DNA from: a virus
Length of the DNA stretch: 46,724 nucleotides
Virus record (IMG/VR): IMGVR_UViG_3300009537_000027
Span: 1-46,724 of that record
Reading direction: 5' to 3' (one strand)
Of this stretch, positions 27,339 to 41,116 are shown in pieces. The position numbers and the translations under genes were made by a program. How positions within the stretch are numbered: position 1 is the first letter of the stretch; each line of letters begins with the position of its first letter. Below the pieces are notes generated by a model. It did no database searches. It was not told the origin of the DNA and saw nothing but the letters and a program-made list of their open reading frames with translations.

Positions 27339-27584
27339 ATGGAACTAAGTGAACTAAGCACAACTCTCCTCGCAGCTAGGAAAGCTTGGTGGCAGGCTAT
27401 CTTGGACAAGGACTATCTCCTTGCGAGCTTCCTCGCGGCTGACATGGCTCGAGCAGCCCGTGCTATCTCCCTCGAAACTGAACGCCTTCATCAACAGCAA
27501 AGGAGTCTTCGTGCAGATTCTTCAGCTAGCCCTAAGCCAAATCACAATCCCTCCCTACCGCCAGCGCAAGGAGATCGAGGGTGA
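27339..27584 (+). CDS. Small helical protein
   Basis: An 81-residue protein: LSELSTTLLAARKAWWQAILDKDYLLASFLAADMARAARAISLETERLHQQQRSL, then a Pro/Ser tail. The 3' end overlaps the ParB/methyltransferase gene in another frame by 74 bases, an unusually long overlap here, so one of the two boundaries may differ. No family was recognised. Confidence 0.55.
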   Translation: MELSELSTTLLAARKAWWQAILDKDYLLASFLAADMARAARAISLETERLHQQQRSLRADSSASPKPNHNPSLPPAQGDRG

Positions 27585-28833
27585 AGCCCTGGGCGCGCTT
27601 ATGGCGAGCATTGAGGCCAACGGCTTGCTCCAGCCCATTGTGGTCAGATCCGGGCCAGATGGGAGATATACCCTCGTTGCAGGGCATAGGAGGCTCAGCG
27701 CAATATCCAATCTCGTCGGTCTCGAGACCAGAATACGTTATGGCACAGCAGAGATTGAACTTGGAAGCATCCCAGCGGTTGACTTCGGTGAGCTTGACCA
27801 GCTCGCAGCTGAAGAAGCCGAGCTTGAAGAGAACGTGCGACGAGTTGACCTTACTTGGGAGGAGCGAGCAGCTGCAACGGGGAGACTTGCTGATCTTCGA
27901 AGCAGAAAAGCGCGTGCTCTGGGTGGCGAGTCCCCCAGTGTGGGGGAGATCTCAGTTGAAGTTAGGGGATCATCTAGCGGGCCTGCTCACGAGAGTACTC
28001 GTAGAGAGCTCATTCTCGCTCCCCTCCTAGCCGCGGAAGCCCCCCACCTCAAAGGCACCAAGAGCCTTGACGAAGCGTGGAAAGCGCACCTCCGGGAAGA
28101 AGATCGCCAGAGGAACATCGCGCTCGGGCAGGCGGTAGGAGCAACCTTCGGTGCGCATAGCCATACCCTTGTTCACGATGACTGTATCCGATGGATCAGG
28201 GAATGTCCAGACAGTCAATTTGACGTTATCATCACCGATCCTCCTTACGGCGTCGGAGCGAATGACTTTGGCGACGCTGGCGGCAGACTCACTAGCCAGA
28301 CCCATAGCTATGATGATTCTCCAGAGGAATGGCAAAGACTTATTGGAGTACTTGGGGCCCACTGGTTCCGGGTAGCAAAGCCCCAGGCACACTTGTACGT
28401 GTGCTGTGACATAGATGGCTTCTCCTACGCAAGAGAGTGGCTTCGTCGGGTGGGCTGGAATGTCCACCGCACACCTCTCGTGAACTTCAAGCGAGATGGC
28501 TCCCGCGTGCCTTGGCCCCAACATGGGCCGCAGCGCAAGTGGGAGCTCGTGCTGTATGCAGAGAAAGGCCGCAGACCTGTTACCCGCATCTACCCAGATG
28601 TCATAGAGACGAAAGGAGATGAGAACCTTGGACATGGAGCCCAGAAGCCGGTGGAGCTTTATAAGAACTTGCTGGTACGCAGCGTGCGGCCTGGTGATAG
28701 TGTACTGGATTGCTTTGGTGGGACTGGTACTGTTCTCGTAGCGTGCCATGAGCTGCAGTGCAAGGCCACGTATGTGGAGGCGGAGGCAGAGTATTATGGG
28801 GTTGCAGTGAAGAGACTGGAGACTCTAGAATGA
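27511..28833 (+). CDS. ParB/Srx-like domain fused to DPPY DNA methyltransferase
   Basis: About 440 residues from GTG at 27511, with AGGAGT five bases upstream; an earlier in-frame start lies deep inside the preceding gene. Residues 1-75 are ParB-like (IPPYRQRKE, LMASIEANGLLQPIVVRSG, YTLVAGHRRLSAIS). Residues about 230-440 are an adenine/N4-cytosine methyltransferase: DVIITDPPYGVG (motif IV) comes before DSVLDCFGGTGTVLVACHE (motif I), the beta-class order. It methylates phage or host DNA, likely to avoid restriction or mark replication. ParB-methyltransferase fusions are known in phages; the target site cannot be read from sequence. No matching nuclease is nearby. Confidence 0.88.
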   Translation: MQILQLALSQITIPPYRQRKEIEGEALGALMASIEANGLLQPIVVRSGPDGRYTLVAGHRRLSAISNLVGLETRIRYGTAEIELGSIPAVDFGELDQLAAEEAELEENVRRVDLTWEERAAATGRLADLRSRKARALGGESPSVGEISVEVRGSSSGPAHESTRRELILAPLLAAEAPHLKGTKSLDEAWKAHLREEDRQRNIALGQAVGATFGAHSHTLVHDDCIRWIRECPDSQFDVIITDPPYGVGANDFGDAGGRLTSQTHSYDDSPEEWQRLIGVLGAHWFRVAKPQAHLYVCCDIDGFSYAREWLRRVGWNVHRTPLVNFKRDGSRVPWPQHGPQRKWELVLYAEKGRRPVTRIYPDVIETKGDENLGHGAQKPVELYKNLLVRSVRPGDSVLDCFGGTGTVLVACHELQCKATYVEAEAEYYGVAVKRLETLE

Positions 28834-32631: not shown

Positions 32632-32943
32632 ATGTCAACCTCCCCTAAGCTTCTGCTGCATACCGGCGTTCTTCGCCGCAAACAGGCGCGTAAGAACGGG
32701 GCTACTCGCGGCCCGTCTGGGGCTCGACACACGTACAGTAAGGATGTGGAGGGCTCGCTGGATGGCTCAGACCCTTGGCTGTGGCCTCGGGCCAGCATGC
32801 CTCCTCGCCGGCTGCCCACCCGCTCTACACAGGCGGCTCCGGGAGAGGCTCCGGCTGCCCGCTGGACGCGGTACGGTCGTTGGAGTGAAGATGGGAGCCA
32901 AGTCTTGAACAACCTCGGAAGGGTGATATATGAGCACCCCTAA
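32632..32943 (+). CDS. Basic protein at the start of the sugar cassette (uncertain)
   Basis: A 103-residue frame from ATG at 32632, overlapping the start of the kinase gene by 14 bases. Its codon use looks more like neighbouring genes than the other frames do. MSTSPKLLLHTGVLRRKQARKNGATRG, then a Pro/Arg/Trp-rich low-order stretch, then WSEDGSQVLNNLGRVIYEHP. No family was recognised and no clear ribosome site is seen. If it is not translated, 32600-32929 is an untranslated leader. Confidence 0.5.
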   Translation: MSTSPKLLLHTGVLRRKQARKNGATRGPSGARHTYSKDVEGSLDGSDPWLWPRASMPPRRLPTRSTQAAPGEAPAARWTRYGRWSEDGSQVLNNLGRVIYEHP

Positions 32944-33754
32944 GCCCATCCTTGTGTGTGGAGACGCGATGGTGGATGAGTACTGGTATGGGGAGGTCTC
33001 CCGTATCAGCCCAGAGGCTCCTGTACCAGTCGTCAAAGTCATCCGGCAAGAGGACCGCTTCGGGGCCGCCGACAACGTGGCTGCGAACATCCAGGCCCTT
33101 GGCGGCACCTTCATCTCAGCTACTTGCAACACTGCTCGCAAGATCCGCCTCATAGGCCGGAACCAGCAAGTCGCCCGTGTAGACTTTGACTGGACTCCCA
33201 AAGAAGAGGACCTCCAGGCCATGGAGCAAGCCTTCCTAGCCGCTCTCCCCAAGTGCTCCATCGTGGTGTTCAGTGACTATGGGAAAGGAAGCCTTGCTCG
33301 TGTAGATGAGCTTATCTTGAGGGCAAAAAACTCCCTCATACTCGTGGACCCCAAGGGGCATGACTACGCTCGGTATGCCGGCGCTGATCTCATCAAGCCG
33401 AATACAGACGAGCTTCGCCAAGTTGTGGGTGGTTGGTCTGACGAGCACCAGCTTAAACGCAAGGTCCAGGCCCTGCTCACAACAGTTCGCATTAAGCACC
33501 TTCTTCTTACTCAAGCCTCAGAAGGTATGACCTTCTTTACTAAAGAGGGAAGCTCTCATTTCCCTTCTGAAGCCCGCGAGGTCTATGACGTGACAGGGGC
33601 TGGAGACACCGCCATCGCAGCACTGGCTGTATCTCTTAGTGAGGAGTACGGCTGGTTACGTGCAGTTCACTACGCTAACAAGGCTGCCGGCATCGTCTGT
33701 GGGAAGTTCGGTACAGCGGTAGCCACAAAGGAGGAAGTCTATGAAGCTGGCTGA
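32930..33754 (+). CDS. hldA: Heptose-7-phosphate kinase, HldA/RfaE N-terminal type
   Basis: A 274-residue PfkB/ribokinase-family protein. SRISPEAPVPVVKV (24-37) is the signature of heptose-7-phosphate 1-kinases. FGAADNVAANIQALGG (44-59) is the substrate strand. TGAGDT (residues 222-227, catalytic D226) is the anion hole and base. Known enzymes convert D-glycero-D-manno-heptose 7-phosphate to the 1,7-bisphosphate. It is shorter than the HldE kinase domain (about 318), but the key motifs are intact. GGAAGG precedes ATG. It overlaps the isomerase gene by 14 bases. With 33741 and 37045 it gives most of the ADP-heptose route; a GmhB phosphatase and HldD epimerase were not found in the window. Confidence 0.88.
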   Translation: MSTPKPILVCGDAMVDEYWYGEVSRISPEAPVPVVKVIRQEDRFGAADNVAANIQALGGTFISATCNTARKIRLIGRNQQVARVDFDWTPKEEDLQAMEQAFLAALPKCSIVVFSDYGKGSLARVDELILRAKNSLILVDPKGHDYARYAGADLIKPNTDELRQVVGGWSDEHQLKRKVQALLTTVRIKHLLLTQASEGMTFFTKEGSSHFPSEAREVYDVTGAGDTAIAALAVSLSEEYGWLRAVHYANKAAGIVCGKFGTAVATKEEVYEAG

Positions 33755-34160
33755 AGCAATCCACAAGGCCAAGCGAATCTACATCATCGGGAATGGAGGA
33801 AGCTTCGCCAACGCCCAACACATCTGTAATGACCTCCTCCTCTGCGGAGTGAGAGCCCACACCCTTGACCCCGCGACCCTCACGGCGATAGCAAATGACT
33901 TTGGCTACGAGTGGGTCTTCGCTCGCTGGCTCAACGTGATGGCAGAGAAAGGAGACCTCCTCATTGCGCTGAGTGGAAGTGGAAAGTCTCCCAACATCCT
34001 CAAGGCTCTCGGCGTGGCTCACCAGAAAGGCATGGAAGTCTGGCCCCTTTTCGGCGCAGCCCAAGGGCAAGACATGCAGACTGCAGAGGAGTTTCAGATC
34101 AAGACTGGCCATGACATCATGCGCTGGTATAAGGGAGAGGCTCGTGACAAACGCGGATAG
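33741..34160 (+). CDS. gmhA: SIS-domain sedoheptulose-7-phosphate isomerase, GmhA-like, short form
   Basis: A 139-residue SIS protein. IIGNGGSFANAQH (15-27) and LIALSGSGKSPNILKAL (74-90) are the sugar-phosphate loops, and ANDFGYEWVFARW (51-63) matches the GmhA pattern NDFGF-x-x-x-F. Family enzymes turn sedoheptulose 7-phosphate into D-glycero-D-manno-heptose 7-phosphate. It is some 50 residues shorter than usual. The position matching catalytic Glu65 of E. coli GmhA appears to be Asp31. The protein ends before the C-terminal helix that carries the catalytic His in E. coli. It may therefore work differently, or with the host enzyme. It overlaps both neighbours and has GAGGAAG upstream. Confidence 0.8.
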   Translation: MKLAEAIHKAKRIYIIGNGGSFANAQHICNDLLLCGVRAHTLDPATLTAIANDFGYEWVFARWLNVMAEKGDLLIALSGSGKSPNILKALGVAHQKGMEVWPLFGAAQGQDMQTAEEFQIKTGHDIMRWYKGEARDKRG

Positions 34161-34644
34161 GGTGGCAGAGTGGCTCGCAAGCAAAGACATCACCCACGCC
34201 TTCGGCATTATTGGAGGGGGGAATGTGGCTTTCTGGAACGCAGTGGTGGCGCGAGGCAAGACCCAGATCGTGTGCTGCCACCATGAGCAGGCGGCCGCCC
34301 AGGCCTCCACGTTCTACTTCCGCACGTGTGGGAAGATTGCCCCCTGTATCGTGACGACTGGTGCAGGAAGCACGAACGCCATTACAGGAGTCATGAGCGC
34401 CTGGATGGACAGTATGCCTCTCCTCGTGATAAGTGGAAACGAAGCATACCAGTACCACGGGGATGGAGGCCGGGGATTCGGCTTCCAGGGGTACTCCAGC
34501 CACCACATCGCGAGGCGCTTCACGAAGCGAGCAGCTTTCCTCACCCCGAGCCGCCTGGACGAAGACCTCGCGGCCGCCCTTGAACCTCGCCAAGGTCCTG
34601 TCTGGCTTGACTTCCCCAAGGATAACCAAAATGCTCTGGCGTAA
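34144..34644 (+). CDS. Thiamine-diphosphate enzyme, N-terminal (PYR) subunit
   Basis: A 166-residue protein from GTG at 34144 with GGGAGAGG upstream, overlapping the isomerase end by 17 bases. NADRVAEWLASKDITHAFGIIGGGN and CCHHEQAAAQAS (catalytic Glu48, which activates the cofactor) are the pyrimidine-binding domain of acetolactate-synthase-type enzymes. IVTTGAGSTNAITGVMSAWMDSMPLLVISG is its second conserved block. The domain ends with GPVWLDFPKDNQ, where a full enzyme would continue; the next gene supplies the rest and starts 14 bases before this stop. It must pair with the following gene product to be active. Confidence 0.85.
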   Translation: MTNADRVAEWLASKDITHAFGIIGGGNVAFWNAVVARGKTQIVCCHHEQAAAQASTFYFRTCGKIAPCIVTTGAGSTNAITGVMSAWMDSMPLLVISGNEAYQYHGDGGRGFGFQGYSSHHIARRFTKRAAFLTPSRLDEDLAAALEPRQGPVWLDFPKDNQNALA

Positions 34645-35710
34645 GCGCCCTCTCCTCATGCTCGGCCACGGTATCCGGGCAGCCGGATGCCAAGACCTCG
34701 CCCCCATGCTCCTCAACCTTGGAGTCCCTGTGGTCGCGAGCTGGCAAGCCAAAGACCTCGTGGACAACAGGCATCCGGCCTTTCTTGGTTGCACTGGCAT
34801 CTATGGGAACCGCGGGGCAAACAAGGCCCTCGCCAATGCTGACCAGCTTGTTGTTCTTGGCAACCGGCTGAGTCTCTGGAACATCTCCGAGCATGGCCTC
34901 GCGGCTAAGCCTGAAGTCCTCATGGTGGACGTGGACCCTATAGAGGCAACTCGCCTCGGGGCTGAGTACCTGAGTACTCCTCTCTCTTTCTTCATCAGGA
35001 ATCTGGAGTCCGCAAGGTGCCCTGAGTGGATGAAGCAGTGCCTGGATTGGAACACAGACTGGCTCGAGCACAGGGACACAGAAGCCTACATCAACTCCTA
35101 CAAGTTCACCAATGCGCTCACTCCCTTCCTCGAGCCAGACCATGTTATTGTGACTGACATGGGGGCTCCCCTCATGAGTGCCCACCAAGTCCTTCGCCTC
35201 AAGCCTCCCCAGCGCCTTATGACGAGCGGGGGCCTGGGAGAGATGGGAGTTGCACTCCCCGCAGCCATCGGAGCTTGCTTCGCGGGAGCCAAGCATGTTC
35301 TCTGCCTTCACGCAGATGGGGGTATGATGATGAACCTGCAGGAACTCCAGACCATCCTCCATCACAACCTTCCCATCAAGATCATCATATATGAGAATGA
35401 AGGCTACCTCATGATGAAGCACACCCAGAAAGCTCAAAGCCTCATACCTCATGGAGTGAGTCCACGCACGGGTGTGAGCCTCCCAGACTATGAGCGCCTT
35501 CTCAGAGGCTGGGGCTTCCGTGTGGGAAGCTTGCGTACATCCACAGACTTTTCCACCCTCATCCCCCAGTTGTTTGGAGCAGAGGGCCCGGCTGCCGTTA
35601 TTTACCACATGGACCCTGAGCAGCCTCTCGTTCCCAAGATGACTTACCGCTACGAGGGGCCGACTCTTGTTTATGACACCCTTTCTGATATGAGCCCCCA
35701 CAAGGAGTGA
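34631..35710 (+). CDS. Thiamine-diphosphate enzyme, central and C-terminal (PP) subunit
   Basis: A 359-residue protein from ATG at 34631, overlapping the PYR gene in another frame. Residues about 8-150 look like the central domain (RPLLMLGHGIRAAG, VVASWQAKDLVDN, ALANADQLVVLGNRLSLW). Residues about 170-350 are the pyrophosphate domain: GGLGEMGVALPAAIGACF, then HADGGMMMNLQELQTIL and LPIKIIIYENEGYLMMKHTQ. The last resembles the Mg-diphosphate motif GDG...NN, with ADG and ENE at the key places. The family uses thiamine diphosphate to join or cleave 2-keto acids. In a sugar cassette, a carboligase building a branched sugar (as YerE does) is one idea; a decarboxylase is another. Confidence 0.85.
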   Translation: MLWRKRPLLMLGHGIRAAGCQDLAPMLLNLGVPVVASWQAKDLVDNRHPAFLGCTGIYGNRGANKALANADQLVVLGNRLSLWNISEHGLAAKPEVLMVDVDPIEATRLGAEYLSTPLSFFIRNLESARCPEWMKQCLDWNTDWLEHRDTEAYINSYKFTNALTPFLEPDHVIVTDMGAPLMSAHQVLRLKPPQRLMTSGGLGEMGVALPAAIGACFAGAKHVLCLHADGGMMMNLQELQTILHHNLPIKIIIYENEGYLMMKHTQKAQSLIPHGVSPRTGVSLPDYERLLRGWGFRVGSLRTSTDFSTLIPQLFGAEGPAAVIYHMDPEQPLVPKMTYRYEGPTLVYDTLSDMSPHKE

Positions 35711-35711
35711 T

Positions 35712-35909
35712 ATGAGCACCCCCCATCTTGAAGTCGTCGTGAAGTTCCCGAAAGAGGTTCCCACAGATGCCCAGGGACCTGCCCTCATGCTCCTCGAGCT
35801 TACCCTTCGCACCCTCACAAGGCTTGATGTAAGAGTCGTGAAGGACCTCATGGGAGATGATTCCAAGCTCCGTAAACTTATGACCATCCAGCAAAGAGAG
35901 GCACTATGA
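35712..35909 (+). CDS. Small protein in the sugar cassette
   Basis: A 65-residue protein, one base after the thiamine-enzyme stop. HLEVVVKFPKEVPTDAQGPALMLLELTLRTLTRLDVRVVKDLMGDDSKLR has an alpha/beta pattern and no cysteines. It overlaps the radical SAM start (ATGA). No family was recognised; a partner or chaperone of a neighbouring enzyme is possible. Confidence 0.65.
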   Translation: MSTPHLEVVVKFPKEVPTDAQGPALMLLELTLRTLTRLDVRVVKDLMGDDSKLRKLMTIQQREAL

Positions 35910-37048
35910 ACTTCGACTACCAGTCTCACACAGAGGTCGGCGGCCAGGCCCTCGCCCTTGACGGCTCGAACATTGGGTATCACAGGGAGCGCGTGGAAGC
36001 CTGGGCTCGCGGAGAGCGAGTCGCGCCTATCTTCATAGATGTAGCCTTCACTCGGAAGTGTCAAGCTGCGTGCTACTTCTGCGCTGCCCAGACCCAGGCC
36101 TCTGAGGGCGGAGTCATCACCCGCGAGCACGCGATGAACTTCCTGGAAGATGCTGCCGAGGTCGGCGTCCTTGCCATGAACTACATCTCAGATGGAGAGT
36201 CCACAATGGTGCCTTGGTACGCAGATGCCGTGGAGAAGGCCACAGACCTCGGCCTTCAGATCGGCGCAGGCACCAATGGCATTGCCACGACGAGACCTGT
36301 GCTGGAGCGTATCCTCCCTCGCCTGGCCTCCTTCCGGGTGAACTTCTCCGCGGGAGAGAAGAAACGCTACGCCGAGATCATGGGCCTTAAGCAAGCTGTC
36401 TACGACATTGTGATAAGGAACATTCGCACTGCTGTCGAGCTTGTTCGGGGCAATGGCTGGCCCTGCATTACAAATATGAACCTTGTCTGTGATCCTGACC
36501 AGTCTGACCAGCTCCTCCCATTCGCGCGCCTGGCCAAGGACCTCGGTGTCCACTACGCAATCATCAAGCACTGTTGGGTAGACACCCACATGGAGAACTC
36601 CCTCCATGTAGACTACAAGGGATATGATCGGATCAAGGAGGTTCTGGAAGAGTGTGAGTCCCTCTCCAACTCCACTACCAAGATCGTGGTGAAGTGGAAC
36701 AAGATGAAGCACAAGGGAGAGCGTGAGTACTCTCGCTGCTTCGGCCCTCCATTCGCCCTTCAGATGTCTGGGAATGGTCTCATTGCTCCCTGCGGGCCCT
36801 TCTTCAATGAAAAGTGGCGCGCCTTTCACATCGGGAACATCACCCAGGCTCGCTTCCGGGACATCTTCCACTCAGAACGCTACTGGGAAGTCATGCGGTA
36901 CATCGCCTCAGATGAGTTTGATCCCCGCAAGCGGTGCCCGAGTGACTGCATGCAGAACCTCACGAATGACTGGCTGTACAAGTACCTCGAGGGCAAGGTC
37001 ACGTTCCCTCTCACACCAGCACCTGCGAATGTGAGATTCCTTGCGTGA
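35906..37048 (+). CDS. Radical SAM enzyme with C-terminal Cys cluster
   Basis: A 380-residue enzyme. CQAACYFC at residues 52-59 is the CxxxCxxC site for the 4Fe-4S cluster. MNYISDGESTMVPWYADAVE is the GGE-like motif, followed by the TIM-barrel pattern IGAGTNGIATTRPVLERIL and FRVNFSAGEKKRY. The C-terminal third has CFGPPFALQMSGNGLIAPCGPF, FHIGNIT, FRDIFHSERYWEVM and RCPSDC, a SPASM-like arrangement for extra Fe-S centres. It may perform a radical step (epimerisation, dehydration, methylation or coupling) on the cassette's sugar or a peptide. Substrate unknown. It overlaps both neighbours. Confidence 0.85.
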   Translation: MNFDYQSHTEVGGQALALDGSNIGYHRERVEAWARGERVAPIFIDVAFTRKCQAACYFCAAQTQASEGGVITREHAMNFLEDAAEVGVLAMNYISDGESTMVPWYADAVEKATDLGLQIGAGTNGIATTRPVLERILPRLASFRVNFSAGEKKRYAEIMGLKQAVYDIVIRNIRTAVELVRGNGWPCITNMNLVCDPDQSDQLLPFARLAKDLGVHYAIIKHCWVDTHMENSLHVDYKGYDRIKEVLEECESLSNSTTKIVVKWNKMKHKGEREYSRCFGPPFALQMSGNGLIAPCGPFFNEKWRAFHIGNITQARFRDIFHSERYWEVMRYIASDEFDPRKRCPSDCMQNLTNDWLYKYLEGKVTFPLTPAPANVRFLA

Positions 37049-37440
37049 AGACTGTCCTCGCGCATGGAGTCTTCGACCTTCTTCACGTGGGGCATATGGC
37101 GCACTTGCAGAGGTGCAGGGACCTGGGGGACTTCCTCTACGTCTCGGTTGTTGCAGACAAGTCTGTGAAGAAAGGCCGCCCCCTTGTCTACAGCGAGAAG
37201 GACCGACTCTTCGCTCTCTCCTGCCTAGAGTGCGTGGACGAGCTTGTCCTCTGTGAGGCCGCCGGCCCTTGGAACATACTCCGAGAGCTGAAGCCCACCA
37301 TCTACGCCCGCAGTGAGGAGTACGCAGCCAAGACCCAGCCGGAGTACGCTGTGTGCAAGGAGCTAGGGATCAAGACTGCGTTCGTCCCCTCTCGGCCCCC
37401 TCACACAATGGACCTGATCAAGCAGATAAAGAAGCTGTGA
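37045..37440 (+). CDS. hldC: Heptose-1-phosphate adenylyltransferase-like protein (HldE C-terminal type)
   Basis: A 131-residue nucleotidyltransferase from GTG overlapping the radical SAM stop (GTGA). HGVFDLLHVGHMAHLQRCRDLGD (residues 7-29) has the HxGH motif (H14-V-G-H17). VSVVADKSVKKGRP and RLFALSCLECVDELVL complete the cytidylyltransferase-like fold. RfaE2/HldC members join ATP with heptose 1-phosphate to make ADP-heptose. Here kinase and transferase are separate genes rather than fused as in E. coli HldE. A glycerol-3-phosphate cytidylyltransferase-like activity is the alternative; the HldA and GmhA neighbours favour heptose. Confidence 0.83.
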   Translation: MKTVLAHGVFDLLHVGHMAHLQRCRDLGDFLYVSVVADKSVKKGRPLVYSEKDRLFALSCLECVDELVLCEAAGPWNILRELKPTIYARSEEYAAKTQPEYAVCKELGIKTAFVPSRPPHTMDLIKQIKKL

Positions 37441-38336
37441 GAAAGTACGCGCTCCTCCTCACTACTCGCAACAAGGTTCGCTGGACCACGGACGCTGTTC
37501 GGAGCATGTTCGCCCAGGTCGGCCCCCCAATCGAGCTTATCCTAAGCGACAGCGGAAGCGTAGATGGAACCCGCGAGCTTCTGGATGAACTCGCCCAGCG
37601 CTACAATGGTCCCCACAAGGTTCGGAGGCTGAACTGCCCCTGCGCAAGCGCCCCAGGAATGTCTGGCCTCAACGCCCACATCACCTGGGCCATGACTCAG
37701 ACTGATGCAGAGGTTGTGATGTCCCTCAGTGGAGATGACTACGACCTCGCACAGAGGAGCGAACTCGTCATCAAAGCCTACGAGGAGTTCTCCCCCAGCA
37801 TGGTCCTCGGAGGCATGTACTACGTCAATGAGAAGATGGAGTACCTTGGGGAGAACGCCTGGCCCCAAGCAGATGGCTGGTGCAAGCTGGAAGAAATGTT
37901 CCCCAAGCTAGTGGGAGGAAGCACCATCCAAAGCTGGTCTCGAGAGTTCTTTGATAAGATTGGGGGCTTGGAGGGCATAGGCAGCCCTGATGTGGTACTT
38001 CCCTTCCTTGCGTGCTTGGACAAGGGAGCCTACTACGTCCATGCTCGAGCACACTGCTATCGCAAGGTCAAGGGCCTGCAGAACACAGGTTTGGAGAGCG
38101 TGTATGACTGCTTCCCGGAGAATGCGCCTGAGCGCCTCCAGATCGAGGAGCATATGCACTTCCAGGTCCTCTCTGGTCACTACACCACCCTTGCGAAGAT
38201 GGATGCCGCCGGCCTCAGGACAGATGAGGCTGTCCCTCTCCTCGCGAACGCGATCTTGGATAGGAGTGCGGCCTGGGTAGCAACCCGCCAGAAAATGACC
38301 TTCGCAGGCATCCCACCGACTCCCTTCCGGGCCTAG
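37437..38336 (+). CDS. Family-2 glycosyltransferase
   Basis: A 299-residue protein from GTG overlapping the previous stop. RKYALLLTTRNKVRWTTDAVRSMFAQVGPPIELILSDSGSVDGTRELL is the GT2 nucleotide-binding half. VVMSLSGDDYDLAQRSELV carries a DxD-type metal site. VGGSTIQSWSREFFDKIGGLEGIGSPDVVLPF resembles the acceptor and D-x-x-L region. It probably transfers a sugar from a nucleotide donor, perhaps the cassette product, to glycan or protein. It ends tail to tail with the holin gene with a four-base overlap. Confidence 0.82.
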   Translation: MRKYALLLTTRNKVRWTTDAVRSMFAQVGPPIELILSDSGSVDGTRELLDELAQRYNGPHKVRRLNCPCASAPGMSGLNAHITWAMTQTDAEVVMSLSGDDYDLAQRSELVIKAYEEFSPSMVLGGMYYVNEKMEYLGENAWPQADGWCKLEEMFPKLVGGSTIQSWSREFFDKIGGLEGIGSPDVVLPFLACLDKGAYYVHARAHCYRKVKGLQNTGLESVYDCFPENAPERLQIEEHMHFQVLSGHYTTLAKMDAAGLRTDEAVPLLANAILDRSAAWVATRQKMTFAGIPPTPFRA

Positions 38337-39199: not shown

Positions 39200-41116
39200 T
39201 CAGTTCCTCACATCCACAATCATGCCTTGTTGGGCAGCCGTGAACGTTCCTGTCCTCCCTGCTCTCACAAGCAGTGTATTCGCGCTCGCTCCCGTGAGGG
39301 CCATTGTACCTTCTGTGATGAGGGCTCCATGGGAAGTCTGAGAGTCCCCAGCATCTCCTGTACACTCCCAACGGCAACGATAGCGCTGGGAAGAAGCTCC
39401 CATAGCCACAACATCAGCGTCGAACTGCCACCGCTTGTAGTTGAAGGAAGTCTGGCCTGTGCCTAGAACAACCCCTGCAAGTTCTAGATTCATAGTAGTA
39501 AGATTGAGTGCCGTAGTTCCCCAAGCAATGACCCGGAAACTTTGTCCAGCTACTGCAAGAGCAGAAGCCGGCACTGCATAGCTCATGGCTGTGGTTGTGC
39601 CTGTGCTAAGAGCCACAGGGGTCGTGATGGCTGTGCCTCGAACAAGAGTATTTCCAAGAGTAGCAGAGCTCCCAAGGGCGAAGCGTGTCTGGGCGGCTAC
39701 GGAGGTGAGGGTGCCTGCAATAGAAGCAGCCCCAGAAAGAGCAATATCCCCCCCATCCGTTATAGAGAAGACAACTGCTGAGTACGCGTTGTTTACGAGT
39801 TGAAGCTGTCCCCCATCTACACGAAGAAACTTGCTCGGAGTAGCTCCCGTACCAGTGAGTTGAAAGTTAGGGCCCCCTGCTCCAGCATAGTAGAACTGAA
39901 AGTTGCCATGGCCATTATAATTAAGACCAACGTTTCCTGTGCCAAGCCCAAAGCCTCCGGGAGCACCACTCCAGCGACCTGCAGGGGAGGAAATTGACCA
40001 AGGCACAGTTATAGGACTCTGGTTAGCATCCAGAATTCTTATACTCGGAGTCGTGCCTCCTCCGGCAATGTCCAGCACATACGACACAGCCGCATCAGAG
40101 GCTCTCTCAAAACGAAGTTCTCCTCCCTCATCGGAGGTATTGTTTCTTCCCAAGTTTATAGGGCTCTTCACATCCAGGGCATAAAATACTGAGGCTCCTG
40201 TGCCGACTTGAAGAAAGCCGTTCACGACCAAAGTTCCGGTGATGCCAGAACTTGTAAGTGTGCCAGTAGTCGTCGTCCCTGTTACAAGGCCCGCGAGGAC
40301 AAGAGAGTTGAACCCCGCGAAGGTGCCGAGGGTGCCTGCCTGGGAGGCACTCGTCAGCCGACCTTTCGCGTCCACCACTAGCTGGCTCGTGATACGAGCC
40401 GCCCCATAGGTGCCAGCAGTCACTCCAGTTGTGCTGAGAGCGCCAGTGAAAGTACCAGTAGTACTTGTGCCCAGTACGTCCCCTGCGCCAACCTGTGTCC
40501 AATTCTGGGCTGTCGTGAGTGTGCCTGTGGTCGTGGTGCCAGTGACTACCCCCGCTGCAACGAGAGTCTGGGCTGTAGTTAATGTCCCTGTGGTTGTAGT
40601 GCCAGTAACTGCGCCGGCGACAGCAAAGGAGTTGAATGATGCAAAGGTGCCAAGCGTCCCAGCATTTGTCCCACTCGTCACGTGGCCTCTTGCATCCACC
40701 ACCAACTGGTTCGTGACGAAAGCAGCTCCGTAAGTGCCTGCAGCTACTCCTGAGGTGTTGTGGCTTACTGTGTACGTACCAGCAGCTGTAGCCACTGCAA
40801 TGGGGGCTGTGCCCTCCAAAGCTCTAGGAGCGGGGAACGCAATGGCTACATTCGCAGCAGAGACAACGTGCCCTCGAGTGTCTACGGATACCTGGGCAGC
40901 CGCTGTGCTGTTTCCATAAGTGCCGGGGGTGACCCCAGAGACTGCGTGCCCAACTGTGAATGTGCCGGAGGAGCCTGTTCCAATCGTGATCGGGCTATTC
41001 CCCACAATCCCGTTCGCGGTTCCTGCCCCGTACCTGTTTCGAGCAACATAGTCCCAGAGCTGGTAGGCCCACTTACCAAAGCGACCTTCTGGCGGCGGGG
41101 GGATCTGATAAGCCAC
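39200..41116 (-). CDS. Tail fibre / receptor-binding protein
   Basis: A 638-residue protein. The N-terminus (MAYQIPPPPEGRFGKWAYQLWDYVARN) is a likely virion-attachment piece. Residues about 60-310 carry tandem beta repeats: the TYG-x4-Q-V-VDARGHVTS module occurs at least three times, and GTTTTGTLTTAQ at least twice. The C-terminal region (LDVKSPINLGRNNTSDEGGELRFERASDA, FQFYYAGAGGPNFQLTGTG, then TTAMSYAVPASALAV and QRYRCRWECTGDAG) looks like a globular receptor-binding tip. It probably forms a trimeric fibre that binds a surface glycan. It lies just after the ejection genes and before the lysis genes. Confidence 0.8.
   Translation of the reverse strand: MAYQIPPPPEGRFGKWAYQLWDYVARNRYGAGTANGIVGNSPITIGTGSSGTFTVGHAVSGVTPGTYGNSTAAAQVSVDTRGHVVSAANVAIAFPAPRALEGTAPIAVATAAGTYTVSHNTSGVAAGTYGAAFVTNQLVVDARGHVTSGTNAGTLGTFASFNSFAVAGAVTGTTTTGTLTTAQTLVAAGVVTGTTTTGTLTTAQNWTQVGAGDVLGTSTTGTFTGALSTTGVTAGTYGAARITSQLVVDAKGRLTSASQAGTLGTFAGFNSLVLAGLVTGTTTTGTLTSSGITGTLVVNGFLQVGTGASVFYALDVKSPINLGRNNTSDEGGELRFERASDAAVSYVLDIAGGGTTPSIRILDANQSPITVPWSISSPAGRWSGAPGGFGLGTGNVGLNYNGHGNFQFYYAGAGGPNFQLTGTGATPSKFLRVDGGQLQLVNNAYSAVVFSITDGGDIALSGAASIAGTLTSVAAQTRFALGSSATLGNTLVRGTAITTPVALSTGTTTAMSYAVPASALAVAGQSFRVIAWGTTALNLTTMNLELAGVVLGTGQTSFNYKRWQFDADVVAMGASSQRYRCRWECTGDAGDSQTSHGALITEGTMALTGASANTLLVRAGRTGTFTAAQQGMIVDVRN

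Follow-up and report, generated by a model that had tools for sequence, protein, structure and literature searches.

The 46.7-kb record IMGVR_UViG_3300009537_000027 of IMG/VR, from an uncultivated virus of bacteria and analysed here over its whole length of 46,724 nucleotides (the window), has matches to terminase, portal, major head protein, DNA polymerase, primase, holin and tail fibre. On its + strand, between positions 32930 and 38336, lies a single run of eight genes encoding an HldA-type kinase, a GmhA-like SIS isomerase, a thiamine diphosphate (ThDP) enzyme divided over two genes, a 65-aa protein (u65), a radical SAM enzyme, an HldC-type nucleotidyltransferase and a GT2 glycosyltransferase (Table 1). 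All eight open reading frames (ORFs) of this overlapping run had been listed in a preliminary description made from the letters alone, and the ORFs and profile searches confirm them. The overlaps between neighbours measure 4-17 nt; only the u65 gene lacks one on its upstream side, starting 1 nt past the stop of ThDP part 2. The G+C content of the cassette is 0.573 compared with 0.58 in the remaining window. Here, we examine the cassette and its relatives in phages and bacteria, and consider it marginally probable that it makes a nucleotide-activated, C-branched heptose-type sugar.

Table 1 Genes of the cassette in the window, and SAR11 proteins with a u65 domain encoded near a radical SAM gene
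Feature	Position	Strand	Evidence
HldA-type heptose-7-phosphate kinase (PfkB family), compact	32930-33754	+	TIGR02198, PDB 4e84, PHROG 8133
GmhA-like SIS isomerase, short	33741-34160	+	SIS_2, gmhA profile, PDB phosphoheptose isomerases
ThDP enzyme part 1, N-terminal (pyrimidine-binding), start GTG	34144-34644	+	PF02776, PDB 8rph
ThDP enzyme part 2, middle and C-terminal	34631-35710	+	PF00205, PF02775, PDB 8rph
65-aa protein (u65), putative partner of the radical SAM enzyme	35712-35909	+	Conservation near the radical SAM gene
Radical SAM enzyme	35906-37048	+	PF04055, PF13186, DesII-like predicted fold
HldC-type nucleotidyltransferase, HVGH	37045-37440	+	TIGR02199, PHROG 7878
GT2 glycosyltransferase	37437-38336	+	PF00535
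SAR11 u65-domain protein	L012 10386-11537		
SAR11 u65-domain protein	L013 6832-7992		
SAR11 u65-domain protein	L016 10861-12000		
SAR11 u65-domain protein	L051 7585-8739		

Results

By sequence, the kinase is HldA-type. Besides PfkB (8.7e-27) it matches the HldA domain TIGR02198 at 3.2e-87, and its 293 bits stay below the cut-off of 345 because about 36 aa are missing, corresponding to residues 110-145 of Burkholderia cenocepacia HldA (4e84). This structure is the best PDB match (1.9e-68), no other PDB sequence is better than 1e-20, and the catalytic motif GAGDT is intact. A phage family of 246 aa (PHROG 8133) also matches, and related compact kinases occur in cyanophages. The isomerase and the nucleotidyltransferase are homologous to GmhA and HldC, as relatives that fall short of the equivalog cut-offs. 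The isomerase matches SIS_2 at 6.5e-12, the gmhA profile at 5.4e-24 (85 bits; cut-off 209) and phosphoheptose isomerases in the PDB at about 1e-17. The position of the GmhA catalytic Glu (E65/E68) is occupied by Asp in 15 of 15 SIS proteins of the set, phage and bacterial alike, so that the isomerase has neither the score above the cut-off nor the catalytic Glu by which a GmhA would be recognized. The nucleotidyltransferase carries the HVGH form of the HxGH motif and matches PHROG 7878 and the HldC profile TIGR02199 (1.5e-24, 86 bits; cut-off 181.5). Of the heptose enzymes named in the preliminary description, the kinase is HldA-type and the other two are relatives of GmhA and HldC. Its remark that GmhB and HldD are missing stands: among 30 other window ORFs scanned (ten against PHROGs only), no phosphatase or sugar epimerase match was found, neither GmhB nor HldD, and a complete ADP-heptose pathway is therefore not seen in the window.

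The N, M and C domains of the ThDP enzyme are all recovered over its two genes. In part 1 (PF02776, 2.2e-25), the GTG start at 34144 is preceded by a GGGAG ribosome site and the catalytic Glu lies inside HHEQAAA. The best PDB match of both parts is JanthE (8rph), at 2.9e-40 for part 1 (141 bits, versus 70 for the best acetolactate synthase) and 1.9e-76 for part 2 (261 bits versus 123). With this closer kinship to JanthE and with both HHEQAAA and (A/C)DGGMM present, the enzyme is YerE/JanthE-like. JanthE, from Janthinobacterium sp. HH01, belongs to the YerE-like enzymes, carries an uncommon CDG motif and joins alpha-keto acids to ketones; it has no known physiological substrate (PMC12188165). 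The likeness extends over sequence class, catalytic Glu and the (C/A)DG ThDP motif with its NLQELQT and KHTQK signature; CDG is found in phage contigs L001, L004 and L075 and bacterial loci L069 and L070, ADG in the window and L072. Unlike JanthE, the window enzyme is split into two overlapping genes, and its surroundings are those of a heptose/radical SAM cassette, not a CDP-dideoxyhexose cluster. We rejected a sequencing frameshift as the origin of the split, which recurs in four other contigs (L001, L004, L072 and L075).

JanthE-like genes were present in 2 of 398 sampled Pseudomonadota genomes, and none was found in cultured phages; ThDP matches in phage collections mostly carried a bacterial acetolactate synthase annotation or came from very short records, and were treated as host DNA. 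The bacterial gene at L069 (genome G369) has neighbours read by eye as RfbF, RfbG and RfbH, together with an aldolase/aldehyde dehydrogenase-like pair. The RfbF/G/H CDP-dideoxyhexose cluster is the setting known for YerE enzymes (PMC12247030), and by its gene content this locus is in line with a branched CDP-sugar pathway of YerE/ErwE type. Separately, its aldolase and aldehyde dehydrogenase-like genes suggest a hydroxylated keto-acid donor, as for erwiniose.

Queries with the radical SAM, u65 and ThDP proteins brought up relatives of the cassette in public viral contigs (L001-L007, L009, L010, L023, L024, L072 and L075). Kinase, SIS, ThDP, radical SAM and nucleotidyltransferase genes occur together in ten phage contigs, counting the window (with L001-L006, L024, L072 and L075). 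The preliminary description had proposed a search for phages with the same gene order; the set recurs, but its order varies. The close sibling L072 shares the primase neighbourhood and has the radical SAM, u65 and nucleotidyltransferase genes inverted. The fetched flanks show little match outside the cassette, a DNA search of phage records with the whole window gave no match, and the window terminase and primase had no match in the records of the earlier-found relatives, in searches run without a positive control. The same set is found in SAR11 and other Pseudomonadota, at loci among genes resembling surface-polysaccharide genes. Of 297 Pelagibacteraceae genomes, 10 had a member of the radical SAM family at E <= 1e-30, as did 21 of 398 Pseudomonadota genomes at E <= 1e-40. 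HldE-like and ThDP genes lay together within about 19 kb in 10 of 20 radical SAM neighbourhoods, compared with one of 20 control stretches taken from these sampled genomes. The bacterial locus L059 has a compact run of HldE-like, radical SAM, fused E1 and SIS genes. Judged by these gene neighbourhoods, the cassette is a real functional unit, conserved and coherent.

In these relatives, the ThDP slot beside the SIS, kinase, radical SAM and nucleotidyltransferase genes is filled by three classes of enzyme. IlvB/YerE types such as that of the window are also found in SAR11 (IlvB types at L012, L013 and L016); minimal pyruvate dehydrogenase (PDH) E1-alpha/beta types fill the slot in L002, L003 (189 + 168 aa), L006 and L011, with E1 types in bacterial L047, L048, L050, L052, L053, L055, L059 and L066 (fused in the last two); and split transketolase types do so in L054 and apparently L051. 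According to a 2025 review, ketone acceptors are known only for the decarboxylase (YerE), alpha-KADH2 (E1) and transketolase ThDP superfamilies, mostly with branched sugars (PMC12247030). Among the cassette relatives examined, the swapped classes coincide with the three ketone-accepting classes of that review, and no other observation argues more strongly for a branching reaction. The alpha-KADH2 enzymes (KbDH-alpha/beta, aldgamycin) and split transketolase enzymes known to branch sugars belong to the classes that fill the slot in relatives such as L002, L003, L048 and L054, but they make antibiotic sugars from deoxyhexoses, whereas the phage forms here are minimal. A cupin-like domain is fused to the ThDP enzyme in L005 (3649-5850), and a related free-standing protein lies between u65 and the radical SAM gene in L024 (8198-8704). 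In the 735-kb genome of an uncultured phage, a distant radical SAM gene lies directly between the genes for E1-beta and E1-alpha (L026 7370-9640).

The radical SAM enzyme matches Radical_SAM (PF04055, 4.7e-10) and SPASM (PF13186, 3e-6). All 51 family members have its CX3CX2C motif (C52/C56/C59), and 48 of the 51 have the four auxiliary cysteines (C278, C296, C344 and C348). These correspond to one auxiliary cluster, as in twitch-type enzymes, which places the protein among the twitch/SPASM radical SAM enzymes with a single auxiliary cluster. An AlphaFold2 model (pLDDT 92, pTM 0.91) has DesII chains as its six best PDB matches (1.1e-15), with BlsE and BtrN also matching, among peptide maturases and viperins. 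A 31-sequence profile finds DesII at 5e-13 (52 bits, over the core) and BtrN at 1e-11, and the four-Cys auxiliary region aligns to BtrN. DesII itself forms a TDP-3-keto sugar from a TDP-amino sugar, and it also dehydrogenates TDP-quinovose (PMC11434129). The window enzyme differs from these proteins in its conserved small partner and its viral origin, and its identity with DesII is only 16-18%, which falls short of sequence-level membership and limits the comparison to how the enzyme may work. We found neither a 4,6-dehydratase nor any other sugar oxidase within the cassette; because of this, and because DesII is the best fold match of the model, the radical SAM enzyme is the best candidate for making a ketone. 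At L012 and L048, NAD-dependent epimerase-like genes lie nearby, which could make the ketone there.

In a comparison with L001, L003, L004 and L072, the cassette genes are under purifying selection and the radical SAM gene is the most constrained, with 81-87% identity versus 40-60% for the kinase, SIS and nucleotidyltransferase proteins. Recent transfer was rejected as the cause of its identity of about 85%, given that synonymous sites are near or at saturation; the substitution pattern indicates strong constraint. A second radical SAM gene stands at the start of the cassette contig L075 (1-924), and second copies are also present in L048, L059 and L062.

For u65, no match was found in Pfam, PHROG or NCBIfam, or in the PDB with a u65 profile. 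In phages it is conserved over its whole length, with no variable core, and adjoins or lies near the radical SAM gene. In bacteria, its motif (LLxLExxLK ... DxxKLR) forms the C-terminal domain of 108-386-aa proteins encoded near a radical SAM gene. The SAR11 versions (about 380 aa) are extended by an unknown N-terminal domain and a middle domain whose predicted fold resembles IscU/SufU weakly; these matches cover only part of the protein (E about 0.02, pTM 0.40) and are suggestive only. From this conserved proximity, we consider u65 a putative partner of the enzyme.

The GT2 enzyme (PF00535, 8.4e-10) has a counterpart in L072 that is 70% identical, and the end of its gene adjoins a lysis and tail-fibre block. 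Convergent with it lies a gene for a tail fibre-like protein (39200-41116, - strand) with Thr/Gly-rich repeats (TGTTTTGTLTTAQ), a possible glycosylation target. In two relatives, a WbuX/WbpG-type N-acetyl sugar amidotransferase follows directly after the cassette (L002 9508-10599 and L011 9297-10592), which would tailor the sugar further.

Discussion

From the gene set, its linkage, families and motifs we infer the following steps, order, substrate and destination. The SIS enzyme would isomerize a ketose phosphate (sedoheptulose-7-phosphate) to the aldose, the kinase would phosphorylate C1, a host phosphatase (GmhB) would remove the 7-phosphate and the nucleotidyltransferase would form an NDP-heptose (ADP by homology). 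The DesII-like radical SAM enzyme, aided by u65, would then turn a ring carbinol into a ketone, through dehydrogenation or radical elimination, and the split JanthE/YerE-like enzyme would decarboxylate an alpha-keto acid and add the acyl unit to that ketone, leaving a branch on a tertiary alcohol. Finally, GT2 would move the sugar onto its acceptor, either a glycan of the host surface or a protein of the virion. The suggestion in the preliminary description of a thiamine-dependent carbon branch and an extra radical step is well supported by the JanthE/YerE kinship, the ThDP class swap, the DesII-like fold and the co-occurrence in phages and bacteria.

Several observations weigh against such a branched heptose. 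The bacterial kinases of the set are strongly divergent from HldA, which together with the sub-threshold SIS and nucleotidyltransferase scores means that the sugar need not be exactly D-glycero-D-manno-heptose. No phosphatase was found among the ORFs scanned. No ThDP enzyme was detected beside the radical SAM, u65 and nucleotidyltransferase genes of L007, L009 and L010, loci read only in part, which suggests that ThDP chemistry is not always used, and the PDH-E1 and transketolase types may be there for a supply step instead. By sequence profile, the peptide maturase SkfB (1e-14, 57 bits) scores slightly above DesII.

As the top sequence-profile match of the enzyme, SkfB also agrees with a different chemistry, in which a SPASM-type enzyme modifies u65 like a ribosomally synthesized and post-translationally modified peptide and the sugar genes are nearby by chance or for a glycosylated peptide. 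The Pfam SPASM match and the small gene immediately upstream of the radical SAM gene are in keeping with this. However, u65 is conserved without a variable core and its bacterial homologues are C-terminal domains of larger proteins, which weakens the peptide reading; only four auxiliary cysteines are present, the fold search puts DesII first and also returns BlsE and BtrN, and the radical SAM gene repeatedly lies beside HldE-like, ThDP and SIS genes. We regard peptide modification as quite improbable. The preliminary description also proposed a boost of the host heptose pool, for which support ends at the three heptose enzymes. A phage that only raised ADP-heptose for the host lipopolysaccharide (LPS) core, as proposed for cyanophages, with the ThDP and radical genes as separate metabolic extras, would resemble the many cyanophages with compact kinase, nucleotidyltransferase and GmhA-like genes, which in SynMITS9220M01 are named as heptose LPS genes (PMC7378029). 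Against this, the ThDP, radical SAM and u65 genes lie in among the heptose genes, in translational overlap with them, and the set stays together through shuffled orders in phages and bacteria, with the radical SAM gene under the tightest constraint; plain supply is improbable. That the ThDP enzyme is an acetolactate synthase boosting branched-chain amino acid synthesis, already disfavoured, is suggested by weak profile matches that fall far under all equivalog cut-offs; with JanthE a much better match and PDH-E1 or transketolase types in its place in relatives, we hold this to be highly improbable.

The destination of a branched sugar is a separate question. Glycosylation of the phage's own virion, such as the tail fibre, instead of the host surface is unlikely: the GT2 gene adjoins the lysis/tail-fibre block, the fibre has Thr-rich repeats and the cassette is without a membrane flippase or polymerase, but the bacterial versions lie amid apparent surface-polysaccharide genes, and sugar genes of pelagiphages and cyanophages are usually read as LPS modification (PMC7029224).

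Compared with the ADP-heptose pathway (GmhA, HldA/HldE and HldC), the window has a clearly HldA-type kinase and homologous SIS and nucleotidyltransferase proteins, but the kinase lacks about 36 aa, Asp replaces Glu in the SIS protein, no phosphatase or epimerase was found and ThDP and radical steps appear to be added. Cyanophages (P-SSM2, S-CAM1 and SynMITS9220M01) likewise carry a compact kinase, nucleotidyltransferase and phosphoheptose isomerase, but only a distant radical SAM gene was seen, in SynMITS9220M01, and the JanthE-like enzyme is missing from the cultured phages searched. Radical SAM cassettes and rfaE have been noted in pelagimyophages (PMC7029224), and heptose genes in a cyanophage (PMC7378029). 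Our literature search, with subscription journals and preprints outside its coverage, found no description of a combined heptose, ThDP and radical SAM cluster. The preliminary description had singled out the combined operon as the strongest candidate for a new system in the window. The cassette is not confined to this phage: its gene set recurs in other phages and among the surface-sugar genes of bacteria. Branched nucleotide-sugar synthesis is a known kind of pathway, of which this heptose/radical variant looks new.

More broadly, we give slightly less than even chances to a nucleotide-sugar pathway not described before, which phages and bacteria, SAR11 among them, would have in common. In it, a keto-heptose nucleotide would be made by a radical SAM enzyme together with its small dedicated partner, and ThDP enzymes of interchangeable classes would then add the carbon branch. 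C-branched sugars are rare, and the known routes begin from deoxyhexose nucleotides. A route from heptose that uses a radical step for the ketone, moves between phages and occurs in the surface-sugar regions of SAR11 would add a new surface-sugar class. It would suggest one physiological role for JanthE-type enzymes and a testable substrate idea for these biocatalysts, and would mean that viruses carry sugar chemistry beyond plain LPS supply. The pair of u65 and the radical SAM enzyme, with a conserved partner domain outside known families, is of interest in its own right.

Elsewhere in the window, a gene at 27421-28833 (+ strand) encodes a ParB-like N-terminal domain fused to an N6/N4 DNA methyltransferase domain.

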